Notes under the pieces: generated by a model
Told to the model about the DNA's origin: nothing
The model's input: the letters and a program-made list of their open reading frames with translations, nothing else
Databases searched by the model: none
Shown: positions 3,202-29,048 of the stretch, in pieces
Layout of the letters: every line of letters begins with the position of its first letter
Position numbering within the stretch: position 1 is the first letter of the stretch
NCBI RefSeq assembly: GCF_964204865.1
Contig: NC_135257.1
Location: forward strand, 5,416,151 to 5,480,150
Direction: 5' to 3'
DNA from: Styela clava
Taxonomy: Eukaryota > Chordata > Ascidiacea > Stolidobranchia > Styelidae
Length of the DNA stretch: 64,000 nucleotides
Position numbers and translations under genes: made by a program

Positions 3202-3242
3202 AAATTGGGCGAGAGCACGTCAGGATATCTTCTAAACATAAT

Positions 3243-8257: not shown

Positions 8258-8342
8258 ATATTTTGTGTTGACTACTGCTTCTTTCGTTGTTTAATTTTTC
8301 TAATGAAGATGAAAACATTCATTCATAATGTTCCATCTAGAA

Positions 8343-8355
8343 GAGGGGGGTAATG
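8343..8355 (+). promoter_or_regulatory. Polypurine tract of the Gypsy element
   Basis: AAGAGGGGGG lies directly before the 3' LTR, the usual place for the plus-strand primer of reverse transcription. The position and composition are the only evidence. Confidence 0.7.
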
Positions 8356-8977
8356 TGACGACCCTTGTTTTGTATTTTAGATGATGTCATGTGATGATAA
8401 TATTGCTGTATTTTGTATTTTTAACACTGAAGACCCTGTGGGCGCTGTGACACTGTCGATATGACTTTTGGTATCCTGTTAGCCTATGCTGTGGTTTGCA
8501 GCAGTGCAGTTGTGGTTGTTTTAGTTGGATTTTTAGTGTTTTAGGTTTTTCTTGTGTCTGTTAAATTAATGTTAGTTCTTGAGAAGGGTACCCAGGGTGT
8601 TTATTTTTGATTTTATGGTTTATGACGGGCTTGGATATTCTAATATTGCTTAATAGAATGATTTTGTTGTTTGAGTGTAGTGCAATTGCAGTTGTTTTGC
8701 TATAGGTTGTACCGGTATGTTAGTCGTTGGTTGTACTACGAATTTGGTTATTGTCTTGTCAGTGCTGTTCAAGTGTTGTGTATTTTTGTTATTTCCGTTG
8801 TACCCTTTCTGTTTTCTTGATTTCATTGGAGTATTTGGTTGTATTAAGGATTGTAATTAATAAATAGAACAAAATAGTATAAATTGAAGTGAATATTGGG
8901 AGGAAACTTGACGTCAGATCATATTGGAAGATATTCTGAACTTGGATAATTATTACATAGACTGCCGGTACGCTAAA
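8356..8977 (+). repeat. 3' LTR of the Gypsy element
   Basis: It begins TGTGACGACC directly after the purine tract and is collinear with 2574-3201. The terminal bases are AAA where the 5' LTR has ACA. The ACTG target duplication follows at 8978-8981. Confidence 0.9.
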
Positions 8978-8981
8978 ACTG

Positions 8982-10407: not shown

Positions 10408-13387
10408 GGGGAGATGCGGGTGACTTGAGCCACGAGGAGACTTGTTCCACCCCCAAAATTAGCAACATGCATTAGTAATAGAATGCTCGCGCGCCCTCTG
10501 TTGGTAGGTTGTGTCATTACTTTATATTTGGTTGTGAGAAGCAGACGTTCTGTAGCTCTGGTGGAAAACAGTTAATGAAAAAGCCGGGATCGCAGCAAAA
10601 AGTGAATTTCATGGTCTCAGGTAATATGTTTACTATTAATAATATTTCAAGTCGTGGTTTAATCACATTAAGTCATTGTGTAGTCTATGTTGTGATGCTC
10701 TAATGGAGACTATTGCAGCGCACGTCGAGTAGTCATTCGGCAGTAGCGGAGCTCAAATGGGAAGATGGCCGATCATGGGAGGGTTGATCCAGTGGTCACC
10801 AGGAGGGTTGCTCCGTGGCTCAACGCTCCTGCATTGGATATATTTTTCATCACATTTTTTCTTTATCAGACGATGTCGCAAACATACAAAAGAAAATCAA
10901 CCCGTGGAAGTGATCCGGCATTAGTCGAAGGGCGGCAGAAGCGGTAAAAGAGGGATGCAGTATTAGATCGGCAGCGAGAACATTTGATGTGGACCGAATG
11001 ACGCTTAAGCGACACATGATTAAACAAAAACATGACCCGTTTGGTACAAGCGGCTACAAGAATTGCAAGCTCAAGAATATGATATTCAGTCCTGAAATGG
11101 AAGCTGAACTAGCTAGTCACATCAAAACACTTGCAGCAAACTACCATGGCCTATCCAAAGATAAATGCCGATGTTTGGGGTATGAGTTTGCAGCAAGAAA
11201 CGATGTTGATGTGCCAAAAAATTTGAAAATCAACAAAAAATCTGGTCAAGGGTTTTGGCTTGGATTGAAAGCACGCAATAACCTTGCAATTCGAAGTCCA
11301 GAAGCTACTTCATTAGCCAGAGCAACGGCGTTTAATCGCCATACAGTAGGACAGTTCTACAAAAACCTTGCCAAAGTAATGGACCAACACAAATTCGAGG
11401 CACAAGACGTATATAACATCAACGAAACAGGGTGCCATACGGTGCAAAAGCCTGAGAGCATTGTTACGGAAAAAGGGGTTAAGCAGATTGGTTCTGTCAT
11501 ATCAGGTGAGAGAGGTGAGCTGGTAACCGTAGTCAATGCGATCAACGCTGCTGGTGGATTTATTCCGCCCTACATGATATTTCCTCGTGTCAATTATCGT
11601 AATTACTTCATACGAGGTGCGCCACTGGGATCTGACGGTGCGGCCACCAGATCAGGTTGGATTAACGAGGAAACGTTTATAAACTATCTCGATCACTTCA
11701 TTAAGCATACACGCTGTATACCCGACAGAAAGGTATTGCTCATCTTAGACAATCACGAGGCCCACGTTTCACTGACAGCTGTTGACAAGGCAGAGGCGAA
11801 CGGATTTGTGGTGTTGACCATCCCTCCACACACGTCCCACAACCTCCAGCCTTTAGACAAGACTGTTTATGGATCATACAATAGAGCCTACGCGCGCGCG
11901 ATGGATAATTAGATGAGGTCCAATCCGGGTAAGACTGTGTCTACATACGATATAGCTCATTTGGTGAACGAAGATCACATCTGCGCATTCGTACCGCGTA
12001 ATATCCTAGCTGGCTTCCACAGCACTGGTATTATGCCTTTCAACAGCGACGTATTCTCAGATGAAGACTATGCGCCATCTTCAGTTACAGATCGCGAAAA
12101 TCCAGTTTGCTCGGCAGTAGACAATGTTGAAAGCGTGTCAGGTTTACAGAGAAATCCCGATACTCCCACGAACCAAAAAGATAACACAATTCAATCAGCA
12201 ACTGGCGTTGGGAGCAATACTGGTTTGATTAGAGCAGTGCAGACTACCAACGCGGAGACTCCTTATGTGTCTCCAAGTGATATACTACCTTTACCGAAAA
12301 CAGGGCCAAGAAAGGTGAAAGCTTCAATATGAAAAAAGGTAACACAGGAATTTTGACAGACACGCCAGTTAGAGATGAAATAGCAGCAAAATCAGTGGCT
12401 AGGATAGAAAAAAATAGAGCAAAGAACTTCGGTCGGGCTAAAAAAATGCTCTTTGCAAACAAGAAAACAGTTAGAGTCAGGGTAGCACCATCCGGATGTA
12501 GCACTTCTTCGAGCGATAGTAAATCTAACGAGAATGTATTGTGCGACGATACTGATGACTCAGAGGAGGAAGATCAAAATATTATCGAGGGCGATTTTGT
12601 CATAGTCAAGATTAGTGGAAAATCTCGAATTGTTCACTACGTCGCAAGAGTTGATGCTTTCGAAGGAGTGTTTCTCCGCCGGGTTTTAAGCGTAAATGAC
12701 CGAACTACTTTTATTTTGGATGTCGAAGATGAAGCACTTTGGTCGAAGAAAGACATTGCAAGAAAGTTATCAATCCCTAGCATTATTGGAACTTCACGTC
12801 GCACCCAGTTCACGTTCTCTTGCGACCTCGATGAATGGAATCTTTGATTTTCACATACTCTGTCACACGCTATTTCAACTTATGAATAAACGTTTCTTTT
12901 CGATTTCTAGGTGCTACCAAGGTGTAATAAGAAGGCTTCGGTGGTATAATTCGTTTCCATTCTGTATTGACTGACAAAAATAAATAAGATTATAGATGCA
13001 TTGCCTCCTATTTAAGATTAGCTAAGTTAAAGTTGCCCAGTTGCCTCACGGTTCCGATACAGAAGTATTTGCATCTTACATTTGTGAAAGATACTCTCCC
13101 GATTGCAACTTAAACGCTACTTCCCGTGCCATTCTGCATGTAGCGGCTCAACTCTCATCAATGGTATGCACAACTCTCCTCAACATGCAGGAGACTTGTG
13201 ACATCTGACACCCCTTTTTAAAACTGGCATAACTCAGAAACAGGGTCGGTTGGATTAAAAGAGACATAACTGTAACATAGCAGAGGTAATGACCTTCGGA
13301 TGATATGAGCTTCTTCAAATTGCTACGAACGATTGAGGAGATATAACTAAATATATAAAAAATGGCTCATCTCTCCCGCATCTTCCC
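10408..13387 (+). mobile_element. pogo-type (Tc1/mariner superfamily) DNA transposon
   Basis: The ~28-bp terminal inverted repeats match (left GGGGAGATGCGGG, right end complement GGGAAGATGCGGG, followed in both by TGAGCCA after a short variable stretch). A TA lies on both sides (10406-10407 and 13388-13389). The uninterrupted relative at 13995-14030 has a single TA at this point, which confirms the boundaries. The element encodes one DDE_1-type transposase, now broken. Noncoding ends are 10408-10870 and 12850-13387. Confidence 0.9.
10873..12847 (+). pseudogene. pogo/jerky-like transposase, inactivated
   Basis: Order: a short start (MSQTYKRKSTRG), then after a frameshift near 10930 a pipsqueak-type helix-turn-helix (about 10935-11030), a CENP-B-type DNA-binding domain ending RSPEATSLARATAFN, and the DDE_1 core. 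The second and third acidic residues are present (LILDNHEAH, LQPLDKT), but the first is asparagine (INETG in place of the family's DETG). A TAG at 11910-11912 interrupts the frame and a frameshift follows near 12330. The acidic C-terminal tail continues to 12847. The frame otherwise stays readable, so decay is moderate. Confidence 0.88.
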
Positions 13388-14974: not shown

Positions 14975-16443
14975 GCTAGCAAAATCCTGCTACTAAAAAT
15001 TACGGTGTCATAAAAAGTGTTTCACTATAAAATTCATGATTAAAAATGTATTAAGTCATACCCTGGGAATACGGCCAAACATTATAAATACAGTATACAG
15101 TCTGATGTGAATAAAATTAAATTATAGACTTTGATAATATTATGTGAGAATTGCAATAAAGTATTTGTATGCATGTCAAAAACTAAATCAATTTTCCAAA
15201 TACCAGAAATGAACAAGATCTGACATTGGGGCTCAAAAAACCTTCAACATATTTTTTTGAATTGGAAAAAAGCACAATCAGTTTTCGAACGAAATACTTT
15301 CAATACAACGCAATGAAGAAAATTTTGAAAAATTATTAAATTGACCCAAATTAAATTTGAAGAAGATCGGTCTTTGGGGCTCAAAAAATATTTTGGGTAT
15401 GGATAGTTGGATTCATTTTCTTTCCAGTCATGTAACGAAATTAGAAAAAACTCGATCAGTTTTCTAACAAAATACTTTAAATACAACGTAATAACGTAAA
15501 TTTTCCAAAATCGTTGAATTGACCCAAGATTTGAAAAAGATTCGTTTTTGGGGCTCAATAAATATTTTGGGTATGGATAGCTGGATTCATTTCCTTTCCA
15601 ATCAAAGGAAAAAATTGGAAAAAACCTCGATCAATGTTTTAACAAAATACTTTAAATACAACGTAATGAGGTAAATTTTCCAAAATCGTTAAAGTAACCC
15701 AAAATTTGAAGAAGATTGGTCTTCAGGGCTCAAAAAATATTTTGGGTATGAATAGCTGGTTTCAACATCTTTTCGATCAGATAAAAAAAATTGGAAAAAA
15801 ACTCGATCAGTTTTCTAACAAAATACATTCAATAGAACGCAATAACGTAAATTTTCCAAAATCGTTAAATTCACCAAAAATTTGAAGAAGATCGGTCATT
15901 GGGGCTAAAAATATATTTTGGGTATAAATAGCTGGATGAATTTCCTTTTCAATCAAATGAAGAAATTGGAACAAAACTCAATCAGTTTTCTAACAAAATA
16001 CTTTCAATACAACATTTCAATAACGTGAATTTGATTGGGAAGACAATGAAACCATCTATCCATACCCAAAATTTTTTTTGAGCCCCAAAGACCAATCTTC
16101 TTCAAATTTTGGGTCAATTTAACGATTTTGGAAAATTTGGGTTAATACGTTGTATTTAAAGTATTTTGTTAGAAAACTGATCAAGTTTTTTTGTCCAATT
16201 TCTCAATTTGACTGGTAAGAAAATAAATCCTGCTACCCATACCCAAAATATTTTCGTTATTTTGTTGTAATAAATATATATTTGTTAACTTCTACTTTGA
16301 TCATATATGCCTTGTGTGATCAAATGCTACATAATAACGTTCAATTTACAACTCTACATTGCCGTTGCTATTAGTTAGAAATATGTCACAAAGTGAAACA
16401 CGTTTTTATGACATCGTATATTTTGATACGGGATTTTGCTAGC
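14975..16443. mobile_element. Non-autonomous TIR element carrying a tandem array
   Basis: Both ends carry GCTAGCAAAATCC in inverted orientation, and the similarity continues inward for about 55 bp (a GTCATAAAAA...GTTTCACT block at 15007-15027 and its complement near 16388-16412). No transposase frame is inside. A target duplication is not clear because the ends are palindromic (GCTAGC). The interior is filled by the tandem array described separately. Confidence 0.6.
15184..16262. repeat. Tandem array of a ~176-bp unit, last copies inverted
   Basis: A block with GAAGATCGGTCTTTGGGGCTC and TATTTTGGGTATGGATAG recurs near 15361, 15537, 15711 and 15887, with a diverged first copy from about 15184. 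Spacing is about 175-178 bp. From about 16025 to 16262 the same unit is present in reverse orientation, so the array ends in a fold-back. There are no long frames. Confidence 0.8.
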
Positions 16444-16572: not shown

Positions 16573-16580
16573 AATATTTT
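16573..16580. repeat. 8-bp target duplication of the 12-kb element (left)
   Basis: AATATTTT here is repeated exactly at 28593-28600, directly outside the two terminal inverted repeats. An 8- to 9-bp duplication is the known habit of Merlin/IS1016-type transposases and is too long for most retroviral integrases (4-6 bp). Confidence 0.9.
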
Positions 16581-16610
16581 GGGTCTAGTGAAGTATACAC
16601 CCGCCTGGAT

Positions 16611-16670
16611 TATACAGGGCGGATAAGTTATTAGACGGATTATGGCACTAAACGAATAACCGCCCTATAC
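16611..16670. repeat. Imperfect palindrome with a second TIR copy
   Basis: AGGGCGG (16616-16622) and CCGCCCT (16660-16666) form the base of a hairpin whose arms extend to TATAC on one side. The right half (16644-16665) matches the right-hand terminus of the element at 17 of 22 positions, so the left end seems to carry a duplicated, degenerate terminal repeat. A transposase-binding site is an inference. Confidence 0.55.
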
Positions 16671-16818
16671 AAAGTAAATAACAAAACGAGAGTGACATGA
16701 CAAACCGGAAACATGTACTGCAGGCAGAGCATGAACTCACTAAAACTACAGGCTTGATGAATAACATGACTAACACGAAAAGCAAATAACTATTAACACG
16801 GACAATAAAATGTACTAG

Positions 16819-16828
16819 TATAAAAAGG
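16819..16828 (+). promoter_or_regulatory. TATA box before the transposase frame
   Basis: TATAAAAAGG is a close match to a consensus TATA box. It is only 20 bp upstream of the first ATG (16839), so a start site 25-30 bp downstream would leave Met18 (16890) as the first usable start codon. A TTTTGCAG/AG splice-acceptor-like site at 16850-16857 would also favour Met18. Confidence 0.45.
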
Positions 16829-16838
16829 GCTCGAATAA

Positions 16839-17834
16839 ATGACAAAATATTTTGCAGAGAACGAAGACTGTTTGGATCGGGCGAGCAGTATGTCGAACGT
16901 AAGAAGATTAGCAGAGAAAGGAGTACTGTATGACGAAAAAGCGTGTATAGAATTTTTGCGATATAGAGGGCTGTTAGCGACGCGGATGAAATGTGCGAAA
17001 TGTGAAACAGAAATGAAAGAGGAAAATACCAAGTCGGCAAAACAGGACTCGTGTAGATGGAGGTGTCAGAAGAAAAATTGTAGGACTACCACCACAATAA
17101 GGAAGGGGTCATTTTTTGAAAATAGCAAGGCGGAACTGACGAAACTAGTTACGACAATGTATTTTTGGGCGGATGATGTGACCCAAGAGACGATGGCCAA
17201 GGAGAGCGAATTGTCGAAGAGAACTATGGTAGACTGGTGTAACTTCATTCGTGAAGTTTGTTCAGAAGACTTGATTGGTAGAAAGAAAAAGATAGGAGGA
17301 ATGGATCGCGTAGTGGCCATCGATGAAACGCACTTAGCAAGACGAAAACCAGCTACGAATGGACAAGGCAGGCCTGTGAAAGCTATGTGGCTTTTTGGAG
17401 GTATAGATTTAACAACAAAGGAGTTGTTTGTAGAGATAATCCCGCCGGAAGTAGGAAGAACAAAAGAAATGATGGAACAGCTAATAGTGAAGCATATAGC
17501 GGATGGAACGACAATCTGGTCAGATATGTTTCCATCGTACAATGACATAGAAAACCTTGGAAGAGGGTATACTCACAGAGCGATAAACCATTCGTACATG
17601 TACGTCACCCCCGAGGGCCATCACACCCAAAATATAGAATCAATTTGGGCGGATGTAAAAAGAAAATTTAAGCGTATGAACGGAGTACCACGACATTTAA
17701 TTCCTTCATACCTCGACGAATATTTGTGGAAGAGACAGTACCCAAAAAACGAACATTTCGACAGAATGTTAGAAGCCATAAGCGTCAACCCAAGATACAA
17801 TGCGAATCGAAAAGAAGAAGAAGACACTAACTGA
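16839..17834 (+). CDS. IS1595/Merlin-type DDE transposase (putative integrase of the element)
   Basis: 331 residues, intact. The N-terminal part has a Cys4 zinc ribbon (CAKC near residue 52, then WRCQKKNC near 75). The catalytic core has all three acidic residues: D162 in AIDETHLARRK, D229 in WSDMFPSYN, and E267 in HTQNIESIWADVKRKFK, the arrangement of the IS1595/ISXO2 family, to which animal Merlin transposases belong. Such enzymes cut at terminal inverted repeats and leave 8- to 9-bp duplications, which agrees with the ends of this element. The start is either the ATG at 16839 or Met18. It sits 258 bp inside the left end. In the joined circle it would lie directly downstream of pol, where retroviruses keep integrase. 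Family assignment is firm; use as the integrase of a retroelement is inferred. Confidence 0.93.
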   Translation: MTKYFAENEDCLDRASSMSNVRRLAEKGVLYDEKACIEFLRYRGLLATRMKCAKCETEMKEENTKSAKQDSCRWRCQKKNCRTTTTIRKGSFFENSKAELTKLVTTMYFWADDVTQETMAKESELSKRTMVDWCNFIREVCSEDLIGRKKKIGGMDRVVAIDETHLARRKPATNGQGRPVKAMWLFGGIDLTTKELFVEIIPPEVGRTKEMMEQLIVKHIADGTTIWSDMFPSYNDIENLGRGYTHRAINHSYMYVTPEGHHTQNIESIWADVKRKFKRMNGVPRHLIPSYLDEYLWKRQYPKNEHFDRMLEAISVNPRYNANRKEEEDTN

Positions 17835-17835
17835 A

Positions 17836-17854
17836 TGTTTATGTCTTTTTACAG
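17836..17854 (+). promoter_or_regulatory. Splice acceptor abutting the env start codon
   Basis: A branch-point-like ACTAAC (17827-17832), then a pyrimidine tract and CAG that ends exactly one base before the env ATG (TGTCTTTTTACAG then ATG). This is a strong 3' splice site. It suggests that Env is translated from a spliced mRNA, as in retroviruses. The matching donor is not identified. Confidence 0.6.
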
Positions 17855-20365
17855 ATGTTAACTAACAAATTAGGAAATTGTAAATATATGCATTCGAAAG
17901 AAGAAACAAATGGCCTGGTTGTCCGACGCTCCAGTGATCTTGGATTCGGATTGGTCAACGTTTTTCCTATTAATATTAAGTGTTGTTGCATTGTTTTGGC
18001 ATTGTTTGGTCACGTGCTACTGGTGCCGAAAGAAACGACCGCAGTTGGAAATGTGGGAACCGTAACAGCCGGTGTAGCGACAATAAATGATGCTTGGCTA
18101 ACCAATGAAAACGAACTAAGGTCATCCCCTTGGAAAAGAATACAGAACACTACTTGGAAAAAACTTAGTTTGACATCCTGCTGGAACATAAGCAAAGAAA
18201 AACCGGTGTTTGAGAAACCAGGATTGTTTTTTTCCTCTAATTTTGGATATGTCGTCGCGGAAAAAAAGACATACCAGGAAAAAATATATCCGAAAGGAAG
18301 ATTCTGGTCGAATCCGGACGAATTGGAAAGGAGTTGCCTATGCGAACGAACTATAAGTTATATTACGCCATCGCTAAACAGTGATAGGATGTGGGAATAC
18401 GCAGAATATCACCGCGGCACTGGACCCGATTTACGACACGTATGGAAATGGGAAGACGAATCAAGTTATAGACGATCGGAAAATTTCAAATATTTGACTG
18501 GAATGACGGTGTATAAAACTATGATAATTAAAATTTTGGCAAGTTATGCTACTGTGATTGCAAACTGTACGGACATAAGGAAAGAAAGTGAAAAAACTAT
18601 TGTGAAACCTATATTCGCAGAAGGATTGAGAGACGTTAGTTACGAAAGACAACAGATGAACACGACCTACATCTATGCGCAAGAGACCTGGGGAAACGAA
18701 AATGTGGTGACGTGGATACATACTACATGTAATTTCGCTGGAAAAATACTGGCGTTTGAACCAACGTCAGGTGATTTCCTGATTCAAGAATGGGATCCAT
18801 GGTATGAGAGAAAAAAAGTTTTAAAGTCTACAAACTATCAGGATTATATCAAAAAATACATGATCAACGGACAAATAACGTATCCTAGGGCGACAAATGT
18901 ATGGCAAAGACAAAACGCCTTCGAAGGATTGCAGCCATTCGGACCTATAAGTGAATGGAGCCCTCGAATAAAATGGATAGAATCTACAAATAACGCGCTT
19001 AATTTAACAAGGGATGGATCAATAAAAATTAAACAAGGTTCGAGATCATATTATAGCCAGTACCCGTCGATGATGAAAGAAGACGAGAAATGTAAAAGAA
19101 GAATAAACCGGAAAAGGAATTGTGAATATCCAGTAGGTGGGGTGCGAGCGAAACTCAGATTTTGGACAAAGGGGGAATACGACCCTTCGAACAACGTATC
19201 GAGATTTCCTGGAACACCCGTGTGGTTGCATGGAACGGGAAATGGCGAATGGGACAATGACCAACTCAGATCGAAATCAATGTACCGAAGGATTGCAACA
19301 CGAAGGATGAAAAGACAGTTCTTGGGAGCGGCGGCCTTGTCATTCGCATCCGCAAATAGGGTATCAATCAACAATCTCCGTAGTGAAATGAATCAAAGGA
19401 TGTCAGAAATGACAAATGAAATGAATGAAAGATTTACACAAGACGAAGGAAAGATGCAACTAATAGCGCAAAAATTGAACAAATTGTCTAGAACCAGTTA
19501 TATTGAAGAAGAAAGATTAAATAATGTTATTGTGGCAATGATTAAAGAGCAAGAAACGAGTGCCGAGAATCAGGAATGGCTCGCCGAGGAAATATCAAAA
19601 ACCCAAGAAATTGAATTAGCCGAATTAGATACTTTCCTGCACACTATAACGGATATAAGGGCTATGTCTTTGGCAGAATTGGCGTTGGACAAATTGATAA
19701 TGCAGGTATTAAAGAATGCCACGGGAAAGCCCTTGTTTGATAAAACTAAAGGTTATTTGACACGAATACAAAACGGACAATTGTACTTGAAAGAATACGC
19801 TCAACTGATTAATGCACAAAAGATAGAAGTGAACGAAACGATCCAGGAAGAACTAAAGCAGGCCGAAAAACAACGCGAGTCGTTGTATAATGCATCAATT
19901 AAGGAAGAAACGGCAAAGGGAGTCTGGGTACAAGCAGTGAACAATACAACGATTTTGCTCAATACGACGGGATGGAAGGAAAAGAACATAACTTTTGTAC
20001 CAATAAATGACACGTTCGGTGGCGATATATTATCCGGACTGGGGACAATAACCAAAACCATAGGAGGCGTGATCACCAAAGGAGTAGAAGGGATTGGAAA
20101 CATCTTAGGAAATGGTCTATATGCGATTATTAAGCCGTTTTTAAAGTTCCTGATACCCGTTGCAGTGGTTATAGTAGCAATGATTCTGGTTTGTTGTTTT
20201 TTGCAATATCACCCTAACTGCAGGAGAAATAAGCAACGATTGCCGGAAATATTGCAAATACCGGACAGGAGAGGAAAGAATTGGGCAAAAAATACTGCAA
20301 AGAAAGGGATTACGAAGACGTTATTAGAAAACGATGCAAAAACCATGGCGGAATTGGCTATTTAA
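17855..20365 (+). CDS. Envelope-like class-I glycoprotein
   Basis: 836 residues, intact. A hydrophobic stretch at about residues 43-57 could be a signal peptide or anchor. The middle has many N-glycosylation sequons. A furin-type site RRMKR (483-487) is followed directly by a hydrophobic, alanine-rich segment like a fusion peptide, then a long charged coiled coil (about 505-600), a glycine-rich region and a transmembrane helix at about 757-783 with a ~50-residue basic tail. This is the layout of a viral class-I fusion protein with surface and transmembrane subunits. Between the cleavage site and the membrane helix I see no cysteine, so the C-x6-CC loop of many retroviral Envs is absent. I cannot assign it to a named Env family by sequence. 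It starts at a perfect splice acceptor. Confidence 0.85.
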   Translation: MLTNKLGNCKYMHSKEETNGLVVRRSSDLGFGLVNVFPINIKCCCIVLALFGHVLLVPKETTAVGNVGTVTAGVATINDAWLTNENELRSSPWKRIQNTTWKKLSLTSCWNISKEKPVFEKPGLFFSSNFGYVVAEKKTYQEKIYPKGRFWSNPDELERSCLCERTISYITPSLNSDRMWEYAEYHRGTGPDLRHVWKWEDESSYRRSENFKYLTGMTVYKTMIIKILASYATVIANCTDIRKESEKTIVKPIFAEGLRDVSYERQQMNTTYIYAQETWGNENVVTWIHTTCNFAGKILAFEPTSGDFLIQEWDPWYERKKVLKSTNYQDYIKKYMINGQITYPRATNVWQRQNAFEGLQPFGPISEWSPRIKWIESTNNALNLTRDGSIKIKQGSRSYYSQYPSMMKEDEKCKRRINRKRNCEYPVGGVRAKLRFWTKGEYDPSNNVSRFPGTPVWLHGTGNGEWDNDQLRSKSMYRRIATRRMKRQFLGAAALSFASANRVSINNLRSEMNQRMSEMTNEMNERFTQDEGKMQLIAQKLNKLSRTSYIEEERLNNVIVAMIKEQETSAENQEWLAEEISKTQEIELAELDTFLHTITDIRAMSLAELALDKLIMQVLKNATGKPLFDKTKGYLTRIQNGQLYLKEYAQLINAQKIEVNETIQEELKQAEKQRESLYNASIKEETAKGVWVQAVNNTTILLNTTGWKEKNITFVPINDTFGGDILSGLGTITKTIGGVITKGVEGIGNILGNGLYAIIKPFLKFLIPVAVVIVAMILVCCFLQYHPNCRRNKQRLPEILQIPDRRGKNWAKNTAKKGITKTLLENDAKTMAELAI

Positions 20366-20833
20366 CATGAAAATGCGAATTTAGTTGATCAAAGCTGAAT
20401 TCAAGGAACCTGTTTCAACTTACCAAGAATATATTTTATTTATTGAACGTTAATGTTTTGCAAACTCTATGCACATGTTTGCAGGAAGCGCGGGCTTATG
20501 ACCTGAGCAAACGCGAGTTGCATAATCCAATTCCCGGAAGCAACCAAAAATACTCCCTACAGACAGCTGCGCGTTCTCACGCAAACATTTCCTGAGTTCA
20601 TGGGATGACTCCCGCGATGAATGAGGAATGTGAGAGAGATATTTTTTTTTCTTTTCTCATGTGCAATTATAATAGAATAACCAAGTGAAAGCAAATAAAT
20701 GTGTGACTAGCGACACACCCATGGCCATATGGAAAAAGAAAGTGTGGAGAACAGGCTGCACTACGTTGAAACAGAAATTTATTAAAGGAACGAAGTTAGA
20801 AGTTGAATAAATTTAATTAGCAGTACACTTGTA
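20366..20833. other. Noncoding spacer between env and the accessory frame
   Basis: About 470 bp. It contains a pyrimidine/AG site near 20477-20484 (ATGTTTGCAG), a T-rich run near 20640-20655 and AATAAA at about 20694. It shows no similarity to the other spacer at 21818-22632 that would mark them as LTRs. Confidence 0.6.
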
Positions 20834-21817
20834 ATGGGGAACAGTCTTCAAATTGAAAGGATCGAGGATACTGGAGAATATCAGAAAGTGACAGTACTTG
20901 TAAAAAAACCAAGGAACTTTACCGATGCCTTTACATCGACAGAAGCTAATTTTGCAGAAAAATTAAAGGTTAATGATGAAGGAAGCCCGGCGCGAGTTGT
21001 TAATTTGGTAAATACAGCGTTAATACAAACACCAACCGTTCGATCACAGGAGTTGTCACCGGATAGAAGCAAGAAATCTGGCGTGTCAAGATCATCTGAA
21101 AGGAAAGGAGAGATTGACTACATAACTGAATGGCTGCGGACCAGCGACGATGAAGTGGTCAAATTACCTGAAACACCGAGTAATTCTCGCGCTTCTTCGA
21201 GATCGGGGAGGGAATCATCAAACAAGAGGGTTGTCGTGGCTACGAAGAGAAAAATTGAAGAACGGTCGAATCCTAAAATACAAATTAAACGGATACGAAG
21301 TCCATTGGCGGATAGGATAAGGTATCCCGAACAACCGAGTAAAATTTTAAAAGTAATTAAAGAAGGAAAATGTGACAACCACTTGAGAAGAATATTTCTC
21401 TCTGAAGGAAGAAATTCAGAAAGGTGGGAAAGGTTCAAAAAATTAAAGAAAAGAGGGAGAGCAAATGACAACGAATGGAGATTAGAAAATGCGCCTCCAT
21501 ATCATGCCAAGAATGAAGAATATTATGAAGTAATCTCCTATGGGAAAGACTTCGTCGAGCGAAAGTATGTAAGGACAGAAATCACTCGGGAAATCGGAGA
21601 TTTTGGGGAACGAATAAAAAGGGACTTGTTAACGGATGTAGTATACCCGGAACTGATAATAAGAGCATTGACGATAATTGAAGAAATAGGCAGACGAGAA
21701 GCAGAAGAGAAGTACTTAGGAGCCCCGAAAGTCTTAAGCAATAAGGTTATGGTATCAGAAAAACAAGATAAAGATATATTGTCATTAACTCTTGAAGACG
21801 AAATGAACATTGAATAA
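20834..21817 (+). CDS. Accessory protein of unknown function
   Basis: 327 residues, intact. The N-terminus reads MGNSLQ, which recalls N-myristoylated proteins, but residue 6 is glutamine, outside the usual consensus. Residues ~65-155 are serine- and charge-rich and look disordered, with basic clusters (TKRKIEERS, KRIRSPLADRIR) that could act in nuclear import or RNA binding. The C-terminal half (about 170-300) is predicted helical and charged and contains a compact aromatic stretch (PPYHAKNEEYYEVISYGKDF). I recognise no family. Its place after env in the circular order corresponds to that of retroviral accessory genes. AATAAA overlaps its stop codon (21812-21817). Confidence 0.8.
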   Translation: MGNSLQIERIEDTGEYQKVTVLVKKPRNFTDAFTSTEANFAEKLKVNDEGSPARVVNLVNTALIQTPTVRSQELSPDRSKKSGVSRSSERKGEIDYITEWLRTSDDEVVKLPETPSNSRASSRSGRESSNKRVVVATKRKIEERSNPKIQIKRIRSPLADRIRYPEQPSKILKVIKEGKCDNHLRRIFLSEGRNSERWERFKKLKKRGRANDNEWRLENAPPYHAKNEEYYEVISYGKDFVERKYVRTEITREIGDFGERIKRDLLTDVVYPELIIRALTIIEEIGRREAEEKYLGAPKVLSNKVMVSEKQDKDILSLTLEDEMNIE

Positions 21818-22632
21818 ATCCCCTATTATCAAAGGAACCCCTATTGTGTTACTAACGTTGTGCTCATGGTTTAACTCGTAACTGGAACTATATTTTATTT
21901 TTTTTTATTTTACGTGATAATATCGTGAGATTAATGATTAAAGATTGATAAGGAACAGTGAAGTGTAATTGACTTGTATTTTATTTTTGATTGCATGCCT
22001 ATTATTATGTATATCTATTGTTAAGTGTTTTTTGTTTGCAATACTTATGTAATGGTGCATATCTCAACTTGTAAATTTAAAACCTTATACAAAAAAAAAA
22101 ATAAAAAATGAGATATGAATAAAACGAAATGCAACCCTATACCCCGATGCTTTATTGTTGGGTTAAAAGTCTTTAATTGTGGGACATATGTGAAATGAAA
22201 CAGTGATATATTGACTGATTTATATAATGTGATGTGTATTGTTTTCAATACTTAATTACGACATTGATCGTGTTAAAACATGGTGATGTTCTAGTTAAGT
22301 ATTGGAGTATTTGGTTGTATTAAGATTTAAAACATAACTAAATAGATAAAAATAGAGTAGTAAAATGCAAACAAGCTCGGATCAAGACTAAAAGGAACTG
22401 TTGTCGAAGTTCCGAACCAAGTGGAATCACCTGTAGACGACAAGAGTCAAGCAGAGAAAACCACTTTAAAAAAGTTGGCATCTCCGCCGGGACTTAAGAC
22501 AACAGATACGAAGAAGCTGATAAGAAGACGCTGATACGAAGAAGCTGATAAGAAGACGCTGATACGAAGAAGCTGATAAGAAGACGCTGATACGAAGAAG
22601 CCGACACAAAGACGCTGAAAAATGTTCAAAAA
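21818..22632 (+). promoter_or_regulatory. Long control/leader region before gag
   Basis: About 815 bp without a gene. It has AATAAA signals at about 21812 and 22117, a TATA-like TTTATATAATG near 22217-22227, a 24-base stretch identical to the Gypsy LTR (22301-22324), and a 28-bp tandem repeat just before gag. The order polyadenylation signal, TATA, leader, gag resembles a single fused LTR plus leader. I could not recognise a tRNA primer-binding site or a polypurine tract with confidence. The regulatory role is inferred. Confidence 0.5.
22505..22616. repeat. 28-bp tandem repeat, four units, before gag
   Basis: Four head-to-tail 28-bp units (22505, 22533, 22561, 22589). The first three are identical and the fourth diverges at a few positions. 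Within each unit an AAGAAG-CTGATA motif occurs in two related forms. It ends 17 bp before the gag start. It could be a protein- or RNA-binding array such as a packaging signal or enhancer. Confidence 0.85.
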
Positions 22633-25347
22633 ATGTTCTCTAAGAAAAGGGAACCGGTGAGTCGCGATGAGGTGAAATTGAGGAAAAGAGTGGGACATCT
22701 AAAACTCATAAGTCAACAACACCAGGACGCGACGAAAAGTGAAGCCAAGCTAAAAAACAAAATGGCGACACAAAGTAAGCTAATAAAAGAATTACATACG
22801 GAAGCTAAACAACTCCAATCAGAACTACCCAAGCTAAAGAAGGAATTAAAAGAAGCCGAAACCGACGTCGAACGAACCCAGAAGGGGGTAGCCATTCTAA
22901 CGAAGGCAGCGAAACAGGCAGCAAAGAAAGTATCGATACAGGACGTTGAAGCATTGGTGTCAGAGAAATATGCGTTGGGAAAAGCTCACGGCGAAGCGAT
23001 GAGGCCAAGGGAAGAGCCGACGGTCATGCCTACGCTGACCACCCCAGCCGTCCTGCTGGCGAATGTTTACCCGACACTAAAAAAAGAAGCACATCAAGAA
23101 AATGGAGCAGCCTCCTTTGGAATCCAGACAAGCGACGGGAATAGTGACGAGGAAGGAGCGAGCTTCGGAAAGGAATTAAGTCACCTAAGGAAGAACAACG
23201 ACAAACTACGCCGAGAAATAGAACAAGCGACAAGTGAGTCGATAAGGAAGATAGAAGAGATGACCCGAAGAGTGCGGGGTGAAACACCTAACGAAAGAGC
23301 TGAAGAAGAGCCTCCCGAGTATCCAGGCAATGAACGACTCAACGTCCAACCGACGGCCCCGTTAGACTGTGCGGTCGCGCTAAAAACAGATATGATGGTG
23401 AGGCCAATCGAATACGAAAAGGTGAGAGAGAATCCAGATCTCCCCCCTGGACCTATGCTTCTGGTGGAACCAGGCATGGACCATCAAGTCGTGCGAATGG
23501 TGCGCCCAGAGCAATTGACATCGACGCCAAAGGGCCAAAAGATACCGACTGCATGTTTCCCCACGGGAATACCGGGACAAGACGCGGTCGCTGACGACAG
23601 AATAAAGAACGGAATGTTGACGGGATATTACCCAGGAATTCAACATGTAACGCCCTATCAAAAGTCAACCTTGATCCCGCGTCCACTTATCTTAACCCCC
23701 CAGTCGAGACAACAGGAAGAGTTGAATCGGACCAGAGCGCAAGAAAACGAAAACTGGACTGCGGGCCGTGGACAGAGGCTAAGGTCAATAGAAATTGACA
23801 ACCCACCGATCATCGTCCCGAGACCAGATGAAGAACTTAGGCCAGGACAACCGGCAATGACTATGTCTGAGATGTTGCAATTGATGCCTCCTCCTGGAAA
23901 CCAAAATTTACTAAGATGGATGACTAAAAGCATGCAAAGAATTCCCCATGGAGAAGGAAATTTGGCAGTAGACATAATTCTGGCTAATGCACTACAAACG
24001 AAATTAAAAGAGGCCAATCGAAATAAAGATGCAGAGCAAATCGCCTTGGCGTTCTCCGACCCCGAACCTAATTGGGAAGACATTATGACGTCACTAGCAA
24101 TAACGAACCCCCAGGGATTAGCCAACAACGACTTGGTAATCAATGAGGTGGGGAGGACATATAACTGGGCAACCCAGAAACCGTGGACGATCATAACGAA
24201 GGCGCTACAGGAAATGGATGTAAGCAAAAATAGCGTAGTAGCGGCGAATGCAGATGGAAGAAGGTTTTTTCAAGTACTAAGGAACAGATTGCCTAGTGCG
24301 TTAAAATTCTTGCTTCAAGGTGCGGAGAGACTGACTTGGGCTGAAGTAACAACACAGTTACAAACATATTGGAACTCAGAAACGATGGACCGAAAGGTCG
24401 CGGATGTGACGACCGATGGTCGCAAGAGATGGGGACGAGAAAGAACCCCGCCTGTGTTTGTAATAAACCAGGTGCCCAAGACCGTGACCTATCCGGCGAT
24501 GCATCAAACTGACCAACTTGAGGTCGGCTCGCAAATGCCAAGACCGCTGAATGATAGCCAAAACAGGAGATATCCTGTAAGGGACAACAGAGGGGTGCCC
24601 CCGCAAAGGCTCCAAGAAAGAGCGAACACCAGAACACCGCGGCCGGCAGGAGGGATGGAAAATACTAGGCGACCGAGATCAACACCACGAGAAGTAGGCG
24701 CAGGACGAAGAAATACAACCCCTGGCCGACCACCCAGGGCGGAGAGTCTGCCCCCGCGCCCCGTACCACGAAATACGGAAGATGCACGAAGAATCAGCCA
24801 ACAAGAAGGTAAAAAATATGATTTTTGGGGAAACCCAAATATCTATGCACCTCTAGGCCTATACTTAACACCACAGACTGGCCAAGCTTTCACTGTATGC
24901 TTCACTTGCAAATCACCTGGGCACTTAAGTCGAGATTGCATCGCAGGGGCTATATTAAGAATGAACGAGCAAATAGTGCGAGACGGCATAATTATGCCGA
25001 GATTGAGAGAACAACCGGAGAACGTCCTTCGAGCTATCGGGGATAAGTGGTCTTCGTTTATGAGTGGAAACAACGTGTTAAGACGCCGGATATCGACGAT
25101 AGAAGAATTGGACGATTACTTTCGATCCCAGAATTCGCCGACGCTGCAAGAGAGAATCACCTTGTGTGATGAATATTATGGAAAAAGACCACAGCGAACC
25201 TCGGATCGCCCGAATTGGATGCCGCCAATAGGAGAAACGGGGGAACCAGAGGAAAGGAGGAGATCGGCTACCTGTGCAGCTCCGGGATGGACAGAACATG
25301 ACCTTGTGGCCGCTCTTTCCTTGGCGGGGGAAGGGTACGAGGGTTGA
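22633..25347 (+). CDS. Gag polyprotein
   Basis: 904 residues, intact, long for a Gag. Residues ~10-110 are a lysine/glutamate-rich coiled coil. Residues ~130-430 are proline-rich and charged. A helical region (about 435-600) with AMTMSEMLQLMPPPGNQ at its front is the likely capsid domain. An arginine/proline-rich stretch (about 660-720) precedes one CCHC zinc knuckle, CFTCKSPGHLSRDC (756-769), the nucleocapsid signature. The ATG at 22633 is preceded by another out-of-frame ATG at 22622; the assignment rests on the open frame. It overlaps the pol frame by 46 nt (25302-25347). Confidence 0.88.
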   Translation: MFSKKREPVSRDEVKLRKRVGHLKLISQQHQDATKSEAKLKNKMATQSKLIKELHTEAKQLQSELPKLKKELKEAETDVERTQKGVAILTKAAKQAAKKVSIQDVEALVSEKYALGKAHGEAMRPREEPTVMPTLTTPAVLLANVYPTLKKEAHQENGAASFGIQTSDGNSDEEGASFGKELSHLRKNNDKLRREIEQATSESIRKIEEMTRRVRGETPNERAEEEPPEYPGNERLNVQPTAPLDCAVALKTDMMVRPIEYEKVRENPDLPPGPMLLVEPGMDHQVVRMVRPEQLTSTPKGQKIPTACFPTGIPGQDAVADDRIKNGMLTGYYPGIQHVTPYQKSTLIPRPLILTPQSRQQEELNRTRAQENENWTAGRGQRLRSIEIDNPPIIVPRPDEELRPGQPAMTMSEMLQLMPPPGNQNLLRWMTKSMQRIPHGEGNLAVDIILANALQTKLKEANRNKDAEQIALAFSDPEPNWEDIMTSLAITNPQGLANNDLVINEVGRTYNWATQKPWTIITKALQEMDVSKNSVVAANADGRRFFQVLRNRLPSALKFLLQGAERLTWAEVTTQLQTYWNSETMDRKVADVTTDGRKRWGRERTPPVFVINQVPKTVTYPAMHQTDQLEVGSQMPRPLNDSQNRRYPVRDNRGVPPQRLQERANTRTPRPAGGMENTRRPRSTPREVGAGRRNTTPGRPPRAESLPPRPVPRNTEDARRISQQEGKKYDFWGNPNIYAPLGLYLTPQTGQAFTVCFTCKSPGHLSRDCIAGAILRMNEQIVRDGIIMPRLREQPENVLRAIGDKWSSFMSGNNVLRRRISTIEELDDYFRSQNSPTLQERITLCDEYYGKRPQRTSDRPNWMPPIGETGEPEERRRSATCAAPGWTEHDLVAALSLAGEGYEG

Positions 25348-28300
25348 GTGACCCGACCATTCAGCTCTCAAAAGAAATATTACCTTGTAAATATGTAAAT
25401 AATATATCAGAATCATTGTTACCAGTTTTCACGGATCTCATAGAAGTCGGAAGTGAGACCTTGAAGTTAAAAAACGTATTCGGAGGAGAACTAATGTTTT
25501 TAATAGATAGAAGAACCGGAGCCACCTTTTTAGCGGATACAGGCTCCGTACCAAACTTAATGAAATTAGAAACGGCGCAAAGACACTATCCCGAAGAATG
25601 GAAAAATAGGAAACCATTGGAAGGATACTTGACCGGAGTCGGAGGGGAATCCAAGGTCGACTCGCTAGTGATAATAGAAAGAGAGGAGGAGAAAATCCCA
25701 TTTGCAGTGGGAAAGAAAATACCGTTGAATATAATAGGATTCCAGTGGATAGGAAGGCTCCAACAAATGGACTCCATCGAAACCAGAATGGATGATCCAA
25801 ATTCTTATTTGAGCAGTGCAGCATTGGCCATCGAACACGAAGGTGACGATCTTCAAGACGATGGGAGACAAAGACATCCGACGCCAGAGCCCCAGGCGGA
25901 AAAAATGGGACTGCCGAATTTCTGGGCTGACAATACAGAATCGCCGGAGTCTCAGGCGAACGTGGGACTGCCGTGGCTTTGGGCTGAAAATACAGAGTCA
26001 GAGTGGCCTTGGGCTCTTGACAACCAAGATGAGAGGATGTCTCGACAACAGGGAAATCGATCAAAAACAGAAGCGCCGGTGTTTCGGGCAGAAACGAAAC
26101 AGTTGATGTCCCAGGGCAAAAGTACGGGACCAGAATTCTTACGATCGACGGACCAAAAAACCAAATCTCGAGGTAAAGTGGATGCATCACATTTATCTCC
26201 CAATGCTGAACTAAATCAAAAGAAAAGCGTGCCTGCGAAACCTAAATACTGGTACCTGTCACAACCGATAAAAGAATATGTGTTGTCAAAAGAAACTCCA
26301 GGATGGGTGAAAAGGGCATTACAGGAACTAGAGGGAGAAGCTATTGCGTTGGCCAAAGAAGAATATACGCCGACGGACTTAGGAACAAAAGAAAACGAGT
26401 TAATCCCTGAAGACGAATGGAAAAAGATTTACGAACCCTATGCAGGAGAATTGGAAAACCTCCAAAAACACTTAAATGAACCACAAGTAATGAAATATAA
26501 GTGCTCAATAGAGTTGAAGGACCCAGATACCAAACCGTTCGTGTCAGGACCTTATAACCTCAAGGGAGAAAAGCAGCAAAAGGCGTTAGAAAACGGGATA
26601 CAACTCATGAAGAATCTGGGAGTTGTGGAGACGGGATTTGCGCAATGGAAACTGGCCATTTTCGTTGTACCGCAAAAAATGAACGAACGTCAGAAACAAG
26701 ACCCAAACTGTGAACAAGCATGGCGTGTAGTGCAGAACCTGCAACCCTTAAATGCTGCAATCAAGGGAATAGAAATAGCCCCTCCATTGATACCAGACGT
26801 GCTCACGATGGCGCAAGGAAGGCCGGTCCTGAGTCTGCTGGATCTAAAGAAAGCCTACTACCATATTGAGGTACCCGAGGAATCTAGAGAATTCCTGGGC
26901 ATTGCAGTGAAAAATGAGCTGCTCAGATTTCGAAAGATGCCGTTTGGAATAAAAACGGGACCGGCGTTGTGGTCTGCAAACATGTTAGAATGCATAGAAA
27001 AACCAGTGACAAAAAACTATAGAGATCGAATTCGAGAAATGGGGAGGATGGACGAAGAAAATGCTGAGCCAATCAAAGTATATATAGACGACATGGTACT
27101 AGCGACCAAAACTATAGCAGACCACCTCGTCTTGTTAAAAGTATTGTTCGAACAAATGGTAGAAATGCGACTAACGATAAGCATAAACAAGTGTTGGATC
27201 GGAAAGAAACGGATAAACGTCCTTGGTGTAACCGTGACAGAACACGAAGTGTTGGTACAACCTGATAGAATACGAGCACTTCGAGAGATACCACCCCCGA
27301 AAAACATAAACGAGCTGCGCGGATGGATTGGCGCATTACGATACCTGGCCAACCACATCCCAAGATTAAGCTTGATATTGACACGGTTTGACGAAAAGAC
27401 GGGAAATGTTCCCTCTACGAGAGGAAAAGTCACGCCACTGGAATGGACGGAAGAATTGTTGGACGACTTTAAAATCGCCCAACAGGCGGTCAGTAATCCA
27501 GAGAAATTGTATCATTTCAAACCCGAGTACAAAACGTATCTGGAAACGGATGCAAGTGAAAAGGGATTTGGCGCCATATTATTTCAAACCAAACCGGAAA
27601 CAACGATTGAGGAAATTGGACCCCATTCAAAAAACGTTTATCCTCTAGCCTATTACAGCCAAAAGTGGAAGACTCAATGCCAGAAGGCTTATGACCCCTG
27701 CAAAAAGGAGTTGAAGGCCCTGCGCGAATCGGTGCGAAAGTTTAAAGAGGTACTGATAGGGACTTCATTTACAATACTGACGGATAACATGGGAGTCCTG
27801 GGGTTATTAAAAAAGATGCAACAACCGAAACAGCCTAGCCAAGATTTTCTTGTACTGCGTTGGTTGAATGAATTGTCAGTATACCCAATCGAACAAGCAA
27901 TACATAGGACTACTCACGAAGTATTTACGTCAGATGGACTGTCAAGATCGGGTTGGATGGAAATGGCCGTGGATGACGAAGACCCGGGAGTTTGGCCCGT
28001 AGCAGTAACGACCCTATCTGGACAAAAACAAAAAAAGAATGACGAAATATCCCGTTTCATAGTCTATCATCTTCGACACAAGACTTGTGAACATGATCAA
28101 AAGGGAATCCACCCGTGGACTGACATTCAATACATAGTGTGGAAACAGTTCGGAGAGTGGTTTCCCCAAAGGAAACTCCAAGAAATTCTTAAAGAAGGAG
28201 GAAGAGTAACGATGTCAGACGAAGGCGTAGGAGCCATCTGTGGGCACTCAAAAGGCGAAAACCCCGAGTATAAAAAGTACGAAGGAAACGAACCGTTATA

Positions 28301-28559
28301 CCACATGACACAGAAGAATAAAATTATGAGCATACTGACCAATGGACTGAAGAAAAAACAGCGAAAATTCATACATCTCACCAACGACCCGAAGAAAATT
28401 CGTGGAAAAAGGACGGAGCGGTTGAAAATATGGCCGACGAAAGACCTGGGAATCATGAAAACACCGAATTCAAAGATATTCTTGGCCCCGGATACGATAC
28501 CGGTGGACAGGATAAGACTATTGACTCATAAACACCCGATTGGATGCGAAGAGCAGTAA
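25344..28559 (+). CDS. Pol: protease-RT-RNase H-Tpt1/KptA-like fusion
   Basis: About 1071 residues counted from a TTG at 25344; the frame is open from 25302 and there is no ATG nearby, so it is probably made as a Gag-Pol fusion. Domains: aspartic protease with ADTGS (64-68); a linker with four imperfect repeats around Q(A)NVGLPWLWAENTES (about 185-225); reverse transcriptase with YIDDM (580-584); RNase H with ETDASEKGFG (D736) and a later TSDGLSRS block. From about residue 900 a Tpt1/KptA domain follows: ISRFIVYHLRHKT (LRH at 910-912), CGHSK (H968), LYHMT (985-989), ILTNGL, HLTNDP and a basic GKRTER segment. This family removes 2'-phosphates from RNA using NAD or ADP-ribosylates 5'-phosphate ends. 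No integrase domain fits between RNase H and the Tpt1 part. Confidence 0.88.
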   Translation: MSDPTIQLSKEILPCKYVNNISESLLPVFTDLIEVGSETLKLKNVFGGELMFLIDRRTGATFLADTGSVPNLMKLETAQRHYPEEWKNRKPLEGYLTGVGGESKVDSLVIIEREEEKIPFAVGKKIPLNIIGFQWIGRLQQMDSIETRMDDPNSYLSSAALAIEHEGDDLQDDGRQRHPTPEPQAEKMGLPNFWADNTESPESQANVGLPWLWAENTESEWPWALDNQDERMSRQQGNRSKTEAPVFRAETKQLMSQGKSTGPEFLRSTDQKTKSRGKVDASHLSPNAELNQKKSVPAKPKYWYLSQPIKEYVLSKETPGWVKRALQELEGEAIALAKEEYTPTDLGTKENELIPEDEWKKIYEPYAGELENLQKHLNEPQVMKYKCSIELKDPDTKPFVSGPYNLKGEKQQKALENGIQLMKNLGVVETGFAQWKLAIFVVPQKMNERQKQDPNCEQAWRVVQNLQPLNAAIKGIEIAPPLIPDVLTMAQGRPVLSLLDLKKAYYHIEVPEESREFLGIAVKNELLRFRKMPFGIKTGPALWSANMLECIEKPVTKNYRDRIREMGRMDEENAEPIKVYIDDMVLATKTIADHLVLLKVLFEQMVEMRLTISINKCWIGKKRINVLGVTVTEHEVLVQPDRIRALREIPPPKNINELRGWIGALRYLANHIPRLSLILTRFDEKTGNVPSTRGKVTPLEWTEELLDDFKIAQQAVSNPEKLYHFKPEYKTYLETDASEKGFGAILFQTKPETTIEEIGPHSKNVYPLAYYSQKWKTQCQKAYDPCKKELKALRESVRKFKEVLIGTSFTILTDNMGVLGLLKKMQQPKQPSQDFLVLRWLNELSVYPIEQAIHRTTHEVFTSDGLSRSGWMEMAVDDEDPGVWPVAVTTLSGQKQKKNDEISRFIVYHLRHKTCEHDQKGIHPWTDIQYIVWKQFGEWFPQRKLQEILKEGGRVTMSDEGVGAICGHSKGENPEYKKYEGNEPLYHMTQKNKIMSILTNGLKKKQRKFIHLTNDPKKIRGKRTERLKIWPTKDLGIMKTPNSKIFLAPDTIPVDRIRLLTHKHPIGCEEQ

Positions 28560-28592
28560 AACACAAAAGTGGGCGGTTATTTCATTAGACCC

Positions 28593-28600
28593 AATATTTT
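28593..28600. repeat. 8-bp target duplication of the 12-kb element (right)
   Basis: AATATTTT, identical to 16573-16580. Confidence 0.9.
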
Positions 28601-28863: not shown

Positions 28864-29048
28864 TCCATTACATTTGAACCCACGTACATTTGAACCCATG
28901 ACAATTGCACCTGTATGCTATTGCACCTATGGAATTTTTTTTGTTTCACGGATAGTTAAACCCATACTAACCCTAACCCATGGGTTTTAGCACACCCGTG
29001 GATATACGCATGGGTTCAAATGTACATGGGTTCAAATGTACGGTCACC
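28864..29048. repeat. Palindromic MITE M1, copy 1
   Basis: Two tandem blocks of ACATTTGAACCCA at the left are mirrored by two blocks of TGGGTTCAAATGTAC at the right, around an inner part with ATTGCACCT repeats. A second, more diverged copy is at 31871-32020. No coding capacity. The stretch 28601-28863 holds no gene but includes a GGTACC-type microsatellite at about 28665-28682. Confidence 0.7.

Follow-up and report, generated by a model that had tools for sequence, protein, structure and literature searches.

A retrovirus-like element family in Styela clava with the ends and transposase of a Merlin-type DNA transposon

How can an element that carries gag, pol and an env-like gene come to be bounded like a DNA transposon of the Merlin type? 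This question is raised by a 12,012-bp element in a 64,000-nucleotide stretch of the Styela clava genome (the window; NC_135257.1, positions 5,416,151 to 5,480,150, or C9:5416151-5480150 in our contig numbering). A sequence-only reading of the window had described terminal inverted repeats (TIRs) at both ends, a perfect 8-bp duplication outside them and five intact frames on one strand (DDE transposase, Env-like, unknown, Gag and a fusion of protease, reverse transcriptase (RT), RNase H and Tpt1), and had proposed that a Merlin-type transposase took over the role of integrase. These boundaries and frames held up, the Env-like label by layout only: the element lies between perfect 8-bp target-site duplications (TSDs) AATATTTT, its TIRs match at 11 of 12 positions (GGGTCTAGTGAA on the left and TTCATTAGACCC on the right), and five open frames lie between them, all on the same strand (Table 1). 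We consider it probable that the element belongs to a retrovirus-like family whose chromosomal form is a DNA transposon, and whose circular form with a single long terminal repeat (LTR) would be inserted by the transposase at abutted TIRs.

When we searched the 376.6-Mb assembly with transposase, Pol and Env queries, we found at least 10 full elements at different sites on six chromosome-size contigs, comprising three families (A, two copies including the one in the window; B, seven; C, one); 43 of the 617 candidates of the Pol search were scored, so that the copy counts are lower bounds. Perfect 8-bp TSDs lie directly outside the TIRs in 9 of the 10 full elements, or 9 of 11 when a deleted copy on contig C8 is counted. 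The second family A copy (A2; C1:16729404-16739417) has the TIRs of the window copy and its own perfect TSD GGATATTT, and is 86% like the window copy over the 2.7 kb compared; its transposase, env, gag and Pol frames are all broken. Family B, with TIRs GGCGCATGTTCAC and GGTGAACTAGAGCC, is represented on C1, C2 (two copies), C3, C6 (two copies) and C9 by copies of about 14.7 kb, with one exception of 13.9 kb. This family is young: identity is at least 99.2% over the left 2.7 kb (six copies) and over the right 0.5 kb (all seven), and Pol and Env are open in every copy and the transposase in six, being split in the copy at C6:2.90 Mb. A 750-bp gap in the C1 copy of family B, considered as a possible spliced intron, sits between two TGAAAAGA repeats and lacks GT-AG ends, and this explanation was ruled out. 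Family C consists of one element (C19:10440547-10456298) with TIR GGGGCTCC and TSD GATCCAAA. Long stretches of Gag were followed in two B copies as well as in A, A2 and C, and all seven B copies have its last 275 residues. More degraded Pol fragments were found, among the scored matches, on C4, C9, C10 and C13 and at three places on C1.

Related sequences also occur in other data. Transposase P0019 (62%) and Env relative P0026 (45%) each derive from a single contig of 5838 bp, probably the same one, which would link transposase and env in another data set. An assembly artefact, or a Merlin element and a retrovirus that lie together by chance, would have to account for this probable pair as well as for ten full elements on six chromosome-size contigs, and we regard it as hardly conceivable.

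The transposase of the window element matches DDE_Tnp_IS1595 in Pfam (PF12762, 5e-13) and is 97% identical to the Styela clava protein P0018. Its DDE-type positions are retained in the alignment with B and P0018-P0022. In a comparison with database relatives, the set holding no named Merlin reference, the transposases of A, P0018, B, C, P0019 and P0020 formed a clade (support 97/97) with no resolved order among A, B, C, P0019 and P0020. Given the TIRs and TSDs, the insertions are very likely made by this Merlin-type transposase.

Pol of family A contains the aspartic-protease motif LADTGS and Pfam matches to RVT_1, RNase H and PTS_2-RNA (Tpt1), and RT, RNase H and Tpt1 were likewise identified by Pfam in one full B Pol and in the C Pol. 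The Pfam and PDB matches place its RT and RNase H with the Ty3/retrovirus/caulimovirus kind; the best PDB match of Pol was 8r0s, an "Enzymatic polyprotein" that we take to be of a caulimovirus, with Ty3-type chains close behind. The pol start overlaps the gag end by four bases in a different frame. The Tpt1-like domain retains the LRH and GHS motifs and has a glycine, four residues before the G of GHS, where the two solved homologues shown have an arginine that we take to be catalytic in Tpt1. Removal of 2'-phosphates and action on RNA ends are guesses at its role. The frame ahead of Pol is labeled Gag from its CCHC knuckle and its position.

The 836-aa frame is called Env-like from its layout rather than from a family match: a basic cleavage-type site, followed by a hydrophobic stretch, that all three families retain, and a C-terminal membrane-type segment. 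It had no Pfam match, and a PDB search with an Env profile gave no hit better than E 0.12; a structure prediction from two alignment rows reached a predicted local distance difference test score of 31 and was discarded. The accessory frame of A, which the sequence-only reading had left as unknown, has a counterpart in the B frame between transposase and env (L003:2527-3885), which also matches PF20886 (PWWP3A/B C-terminal). This accessory frame follows env in A and precedes it in B, and its place in C is occupied by an unclassified frame.

No integrase match was obtained with Pfam in the five A frames, in one full B Pol, or in the Pol proteins of family C, of a further relative on contig C2 (element D) and of the database relatives P0001-P0004; nor was there a Pfam match to a tyrosine recombinase among the five A frames, smaller frames lying outside that scan. 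LTRs around gag-pol-env would have spoken against the earlier proposal. When the 3 kb at each end of A were compared on the plus strand, one chance 13-mer was all that emerged, and the end pieces of A2, one B copy and C showed no LTR-like direct repeat, with a best chance match of 27 bases. A conventional LTR retrovirus, whose integrase has diverged or is supplied in trans and whose TIR/TSD pattern is secondary, could be read from element D, which has the gag-pol-env order and no adjoining transposase. The lack of an LTR pair and of an integrase match, together with TIRs that are immediately flanked by perfect 8-bp TSDs in nine of ten elements, makes this account very improbable.

Family A instead has one long non-coding region, ahead of gag, that resembles an LTR. 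A motif of LTR-promoter type, TTGGAGTATTTGGTTGTATTAAG, is exact in this region of A and in its counterparts in B and C, occurs at the 3' end of D with a single change, and is unaltered in the two LTRs of a Ty3-type element at positions 2574-8978 of the window. It has 345 exact sites in the genome; its backward control has 0. Among the first 100 of these sites, 51 stand in same-strand pairs 4-11 kb apart, an LTR-like spacing, and the four B elements within the same 100 hold one site each. Downstream of the motif, A and A2 share an identical 19-nt primer site, TGGCATCTCCGCCGGGACT, with an 18/18 match to host tRNA-Arg(UCU). Its correspondence to a tRNA-Arg end had been predicted ahead of the genomic match. 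Host tRNA ends were located by pattern searches of the genome, two acceptor-end bases being left open for A; three genomic sites end in GGCGGAGATG, the exact complement of TGGCATCTCCGCCGGGACT, and ARAGORN identified the one submitted as tRNA-Arg(UCU). The predicted primer site of D, TGGCGAGCACGCCAGGATT, corresponds to 66 tRNA-end-like genomic sites, which are pattern matches only (control, 0). An array at C9:20869237-21051819 holds 61 sites whose ends resemble that of one tRNA, the predicted primer of D.

Evolutionary constraint was estimated by the Nei-Gojobori method from the A and A2 pair as the ratio of nonsynonymous to synonymous substitution rates (dN/dS). The ratio was 0.09 for the transposase (327 of 331 codons), 0.098 for pol (1063 of 1071), 0.15 for gag (819 of 904), 0.21 for the accessory gene orf3 (323 of 327) and 0.23 for env (505 of 836), with dS between 0.36 and 0.54 across the five genes. 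By this measure, all five family A genes evolved under purifying selection. Part of the change in A2 probably followed its decay, so that the values may have been lower during the constrained period. Selection, primer site and promoter together make it likely that a reverse-transcription cycle is in use.

These values bear on two further explanations. In one, a retrovirus became trapped in a Merlin transposon and its genes are carried along without function. A Merlin-type transposase at C13:16.44 Mb, with no Pol or Env nearby among the matches listed and no TIRs by exact 12-mers within 3 kb, speaks in its favour. The earlier reading had itself named a single nested copy as a result that would count against it; the same gene set is instead present, with long open frames, in three families that differ by about 35-60% at the protein level, the dN/dS of gag, pol and env is 0.1-0.23, and the gene order is permuted rather than that of a nested LTR provirus. 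Functionless passengers are accordingly a most improbable account. In the other explanation, movement is by DNA-only cut-and-paste, copies being gained through transposase and host repair, and RT, Gag and Env are used only for passage between cells or hosts, or as helpers. TIRs, 8-bp TSDs and an intact transposase would suffice for DNA transposition, and the 32 (env piece) and 3 (pol piece) incompatible site pairs among the B copies, which are as template switching would give, could also be the product of gene conversion. Against DNA-only movement, however, constraint is as strong on Pol as on the transposase and almost as strong on Gag, a tRNA primer site (A) and an LTR-type promoter (A, B and C) are present, and there is hardly any trace of the internally deleted derivatives that typically accompany large DNA transposons: apart from the seven long copies, searches with the B ends gave just an old deleted copy and a 50-bp piece. 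We judge DNA-only movement unlikely, though less so than the other alternatives.

The gene order suggests how the two sets of functions could be joined. The chromosomal order is transposase, env, accessory, LTR-like region, gag, pol in A and transposase, accessory, env, LTR-like region, gag, pol in B and C (with the unclassified frame in the accessory place of C). Closed to a circle, the map runs from the LTR-like region and primer-binding site through gag, pol, the TIR junction and transposase to env, which is the retroviral order. Read from this map, the element is a circularly permuted retrovirus in which the opening falls between pol and env, and the place where integrase would be expected on a retroviral map is occupied by the transposase and TIR junction. 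In A, B and C alike, neither AATAAA nor ATTAAA lies downstream of the pol stop and before the right end (the B stretch has one, inside the reading frame); with neither hexamer after pol and a single promoter, a full genomic RNA would need a circular or tandem template.

In the cycle that we propose for the retrovirus-like family, genomic RNA would be transcribed from circular DNA with abutted TIRs, starting at the LTR-like promoter and going full circle to where it began, and would be terminally redundant. Gag would package this RNA, and RT, primed on tRNA-Arg, would produce a one-LTR circular or circularising DNA. The transposase would then act at the abutted TIRs and insert the genome, leaving an integrated copy in the permuted order (transposase-env-accessory-LTR-gag-pol); it may excise copies too, restoring the circle. 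The RNA stage, the circle and transposase-driven movement are proposed steps, and a one-LTR circle would be the simplest link between insertion by the transposase and the reverse-transcription cycle. A more specific version, to which we would give an even chance, is an enveloped, ancestrally integrase-less reverse-transcribing virus with a one-LTR circle, whose obligatory chromosomal form is a Merlin transposon and whose full genomic RNA needs the abutted-TIR circle.

Relatives outside the three families indicate how the transposase may have been acquired. The Pol relatives P0001-P0004 contain RT, RNase H and Tpt1; P0003 stands for a Tpt1-type Pol cluster of 215 member sequences in another data set. 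In an RT tree that holds no named virus families and no Caulimoviridae rows, the nine Tpt1-type rows (A, A2, B, C, D and P0001-P0004) stood apart, with support of 100/100, from 11 Ty3-like Pol rows, ten with the integrase core PF00665 and one (P0015) with PF17921 only. In element D (C2:5185491-5195224, minus strand), gag is broken and the RT-RNase H frame is open over 729 aa, with a Tpt1 match that is weak (2.6e-4, under the Pfam cut-off); an open env-like frame follows it directly. The ends of D carry an exact repeat of 30 bp, in which its primer site begins; on one reading of this one copy, D might derive from a one-LTR circle that was opened at the primer site. A 455-bp direct repeat (82%) flanks D; it was set aside as an LTR pair when neighbouring repeats suggested a host array with D inside one unit, although an old LTR pair around D is possible. 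The Pol group without integrase includes members without a transposase nearby (D and, as far as the search reached, P0001-P0004), which suggests that an integrase-less lineage gained a transposase. The proposal that a Merlin-type transposase serves in place of integrase is supported by TIRs, TSDs, copies and the missing integrase match, except that the transposase probably moved into a vacant place instead of ousting an integrase. Scans of viral and GTDB contigs with the Pol alignment gave 24 and 46 stretches that fit the pattern, of which 0 were confirmed.

Whether the genes share one history, as the earlier proposal implied, received a divided answer. Pairwise identity for pol is 50% (A-B), 47% (A-C) and 60% (B-C), and for gag 35% (A-C), 45% (B-C, over the 485-aa C part) and 32% (A-B, over 118 aa); for env the three pairs among A, B and C give 36, 38 and 38%, and for the transposase 52% (A-B), 48% (A-C) and 42% (B-C, over 147 aa of C). 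The histories are partly concordant, env and the C transposase differing from pol and gag, and halves of the element may have recombined between lineages.

Several observations weigh against a retrovirus-like family with a transposon form. The proposal is built from genome sequence alone, from which RNA, particle, circle and movement are all inferred, and the assembly contains no TIR-TIR junction of B (0-20 nt), whether in tandem or circle. A2 retains the primer site but not the promoter part of the LTR-like region (L015:1430-1720), a convincing primer-binding site was not found in B, and C has only a 12-nt candidate, TGGTGGCAGCGG, a tentative match to a tRNA-Leu end. The B copy at C2:23.36 Mb has no TSD, and the B-like copy on C8 is older, internally deleted and without matching flanks. 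D shares the Pol type and has no adjoining transposase, and no transposase match came from a contig of the same length as those of P0001-P0004 in a word-sharing search that a more distant transposase could escape. The dN/dS values come from one pair only, the incompatible sites of B have gene conversion as a second possible source, and pol and gag group B with C (60% and 45%) while env does not, the 147-aa part of the C transposase being nearer A.

Retroelements move through a reverse-transcribed copy and an LTR-specific integrase or other retro machinery, and DNA transposons move as DNA through a TIR-specific transposase. The present element holds both kits, and both are under selection in family A. 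It resembles Merlin/IS1016 (IS1595-type) elements in its IS1595-model DDE transposase, short TIRs and 8-bp TSD, but here the transposase shares 10-16 kb with gag, pol and env; to our knowledge, known Merlins carry only a transposase. With Ty3/gypsy elements (Metaviridae) and Retroviridae it shares a CCHC Gag, the protease-RT-RNase H arrangement, a tRNA primer site (A), an LTR-type promoter, an env-like gene and the circle order, and it differs from them in having no LTR pair, no integrase, an 8-bp rather than 4-6-bp TSD, a permuted provirus and Tpt1 at the Pol end. Caulimoviridae likewise have a Pol without integrase, and the circular genome with a single LTR-like region is, for the present element, a proposal only; the env-like gene, transposase, TIRs and animal genome set it apart from them.

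A circular intermediate is known from DIRS-type retroelements. These are RT elements with a DNA recombinase other than integrase (PMC12440569), a tyrosine recombinase, in contrast to the DDE transposase with TIRs and TSDs here. The Tpt1-type, integrase-less Pol lineage is absent from the groups named in the passages of PMC12440569 consulted, by description rather than by tree. In Teratorn, a whole herpesvirus is bounded and moved as a cut-and-paste piggyBac transposon, with TIRs at its ends and the transposase gene inside, and PMC10175614 terms it the first example of a DNA virus fused to a cut-and-paste transposon; here a reverse-transcribing virus-like element is joined to a transposase of Merlin type. 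We found no reverse-transcribing counterpart of Teratorn in the open-access literature and no published description of such an element there, including work on Styela transposons, in agreement with the sequence-only reading, which knew of no family with this makeup.

In retroviruses, circular viral DNA is regarded as a dead end. If the proposed cycle is true, the family would be a class of mobile element joining both transposon classes, an example from nature of a transposase taking up the vacant place of an integrase, and a route, open to testing, by which circular viral DNA becomes an integration substrate; the several near-identical copies make the proposal directly testable in living animals.

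Table 1 Features of the family A element, in positions of the window.
Feature	Position	Strand	Basis or remark
Left TSD AATATTTT	16573..16580	.	Repeated exactly at right flank
Left TIR GGGTCTAGTGAA	16581..16592	+	Identical in second A copy on C1
Inner left-end repeat	16643..16665	+	78% complementary to right end; possible second transposase-binding site
Merlin/IS1595-type DDE transposase, 331 aa	16839..17834	+	Pfam PF12762
Env-like glycoprotein, 836 aa	17855..20365	+	Layout; relatives in B (38%) and C (41%)
Accessory protein (orf3), 327 aa	20834..21817	+	PF20886 PWP3A-B_C, 8e-7
Long non-coding LTR-like region, single occurrence	21818..22632	+	815 bp between accessory gene and gag
LTR-type promoter motif TTGGAGTATTTGGTTGTATTAAG, 23 nt	22302..22324	+	Common to B and C, near-match in D
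Primer-binding site TGGCATCTCCGCCGGGACT, 19 nt	22476..22494	+	Complement of host tRNA-Arg(UCU) 3' end including CCA
14-bp tandem repeats, gag leader	22505..22616	+	Repeat search
Gag, 904 aa, CCHC zinc knuckle	22633..25347	+	zf-CCHC match, position before Pol
Pol, 1071 aa: protease motif, RT, RNase H, Tpt1/KptA-like domain	25344..28559	+	Pfam, motif
Tpt1/KptA-like domain, C-terminal to RNase H in Pol	28035..28415	+	Pfam PTS_2-RNA
Right TIR TTCATTAGACCC	28581..28592	+	Inverted match to left end
Right TSD AATATTTT	28593..28600	.	Repeats left flank

Other mobile and repeated sequences lie around the element in the window. The Ty3-type element at 2574-8978 has LTRs that are 95% alike, and protease, RNase H and weak integrase matches in separate frames. 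A transposase frame with DDE_1/DDE_3 matches (10989-11912) is followed by two further frames, the whole spanning 10989-12847, and repeats spaced at about 177 bp, both direct and inverted, occupy 15260-16254 just before the element. Just outside its right end, a 32-nt inverted repeat with a 108-nt spacer spans 28869-29040, and pieces of a hAT-type transposase (DUF4371, under the cut-off, and Dimer_Tnp_hAT) lie at 57020-59101.

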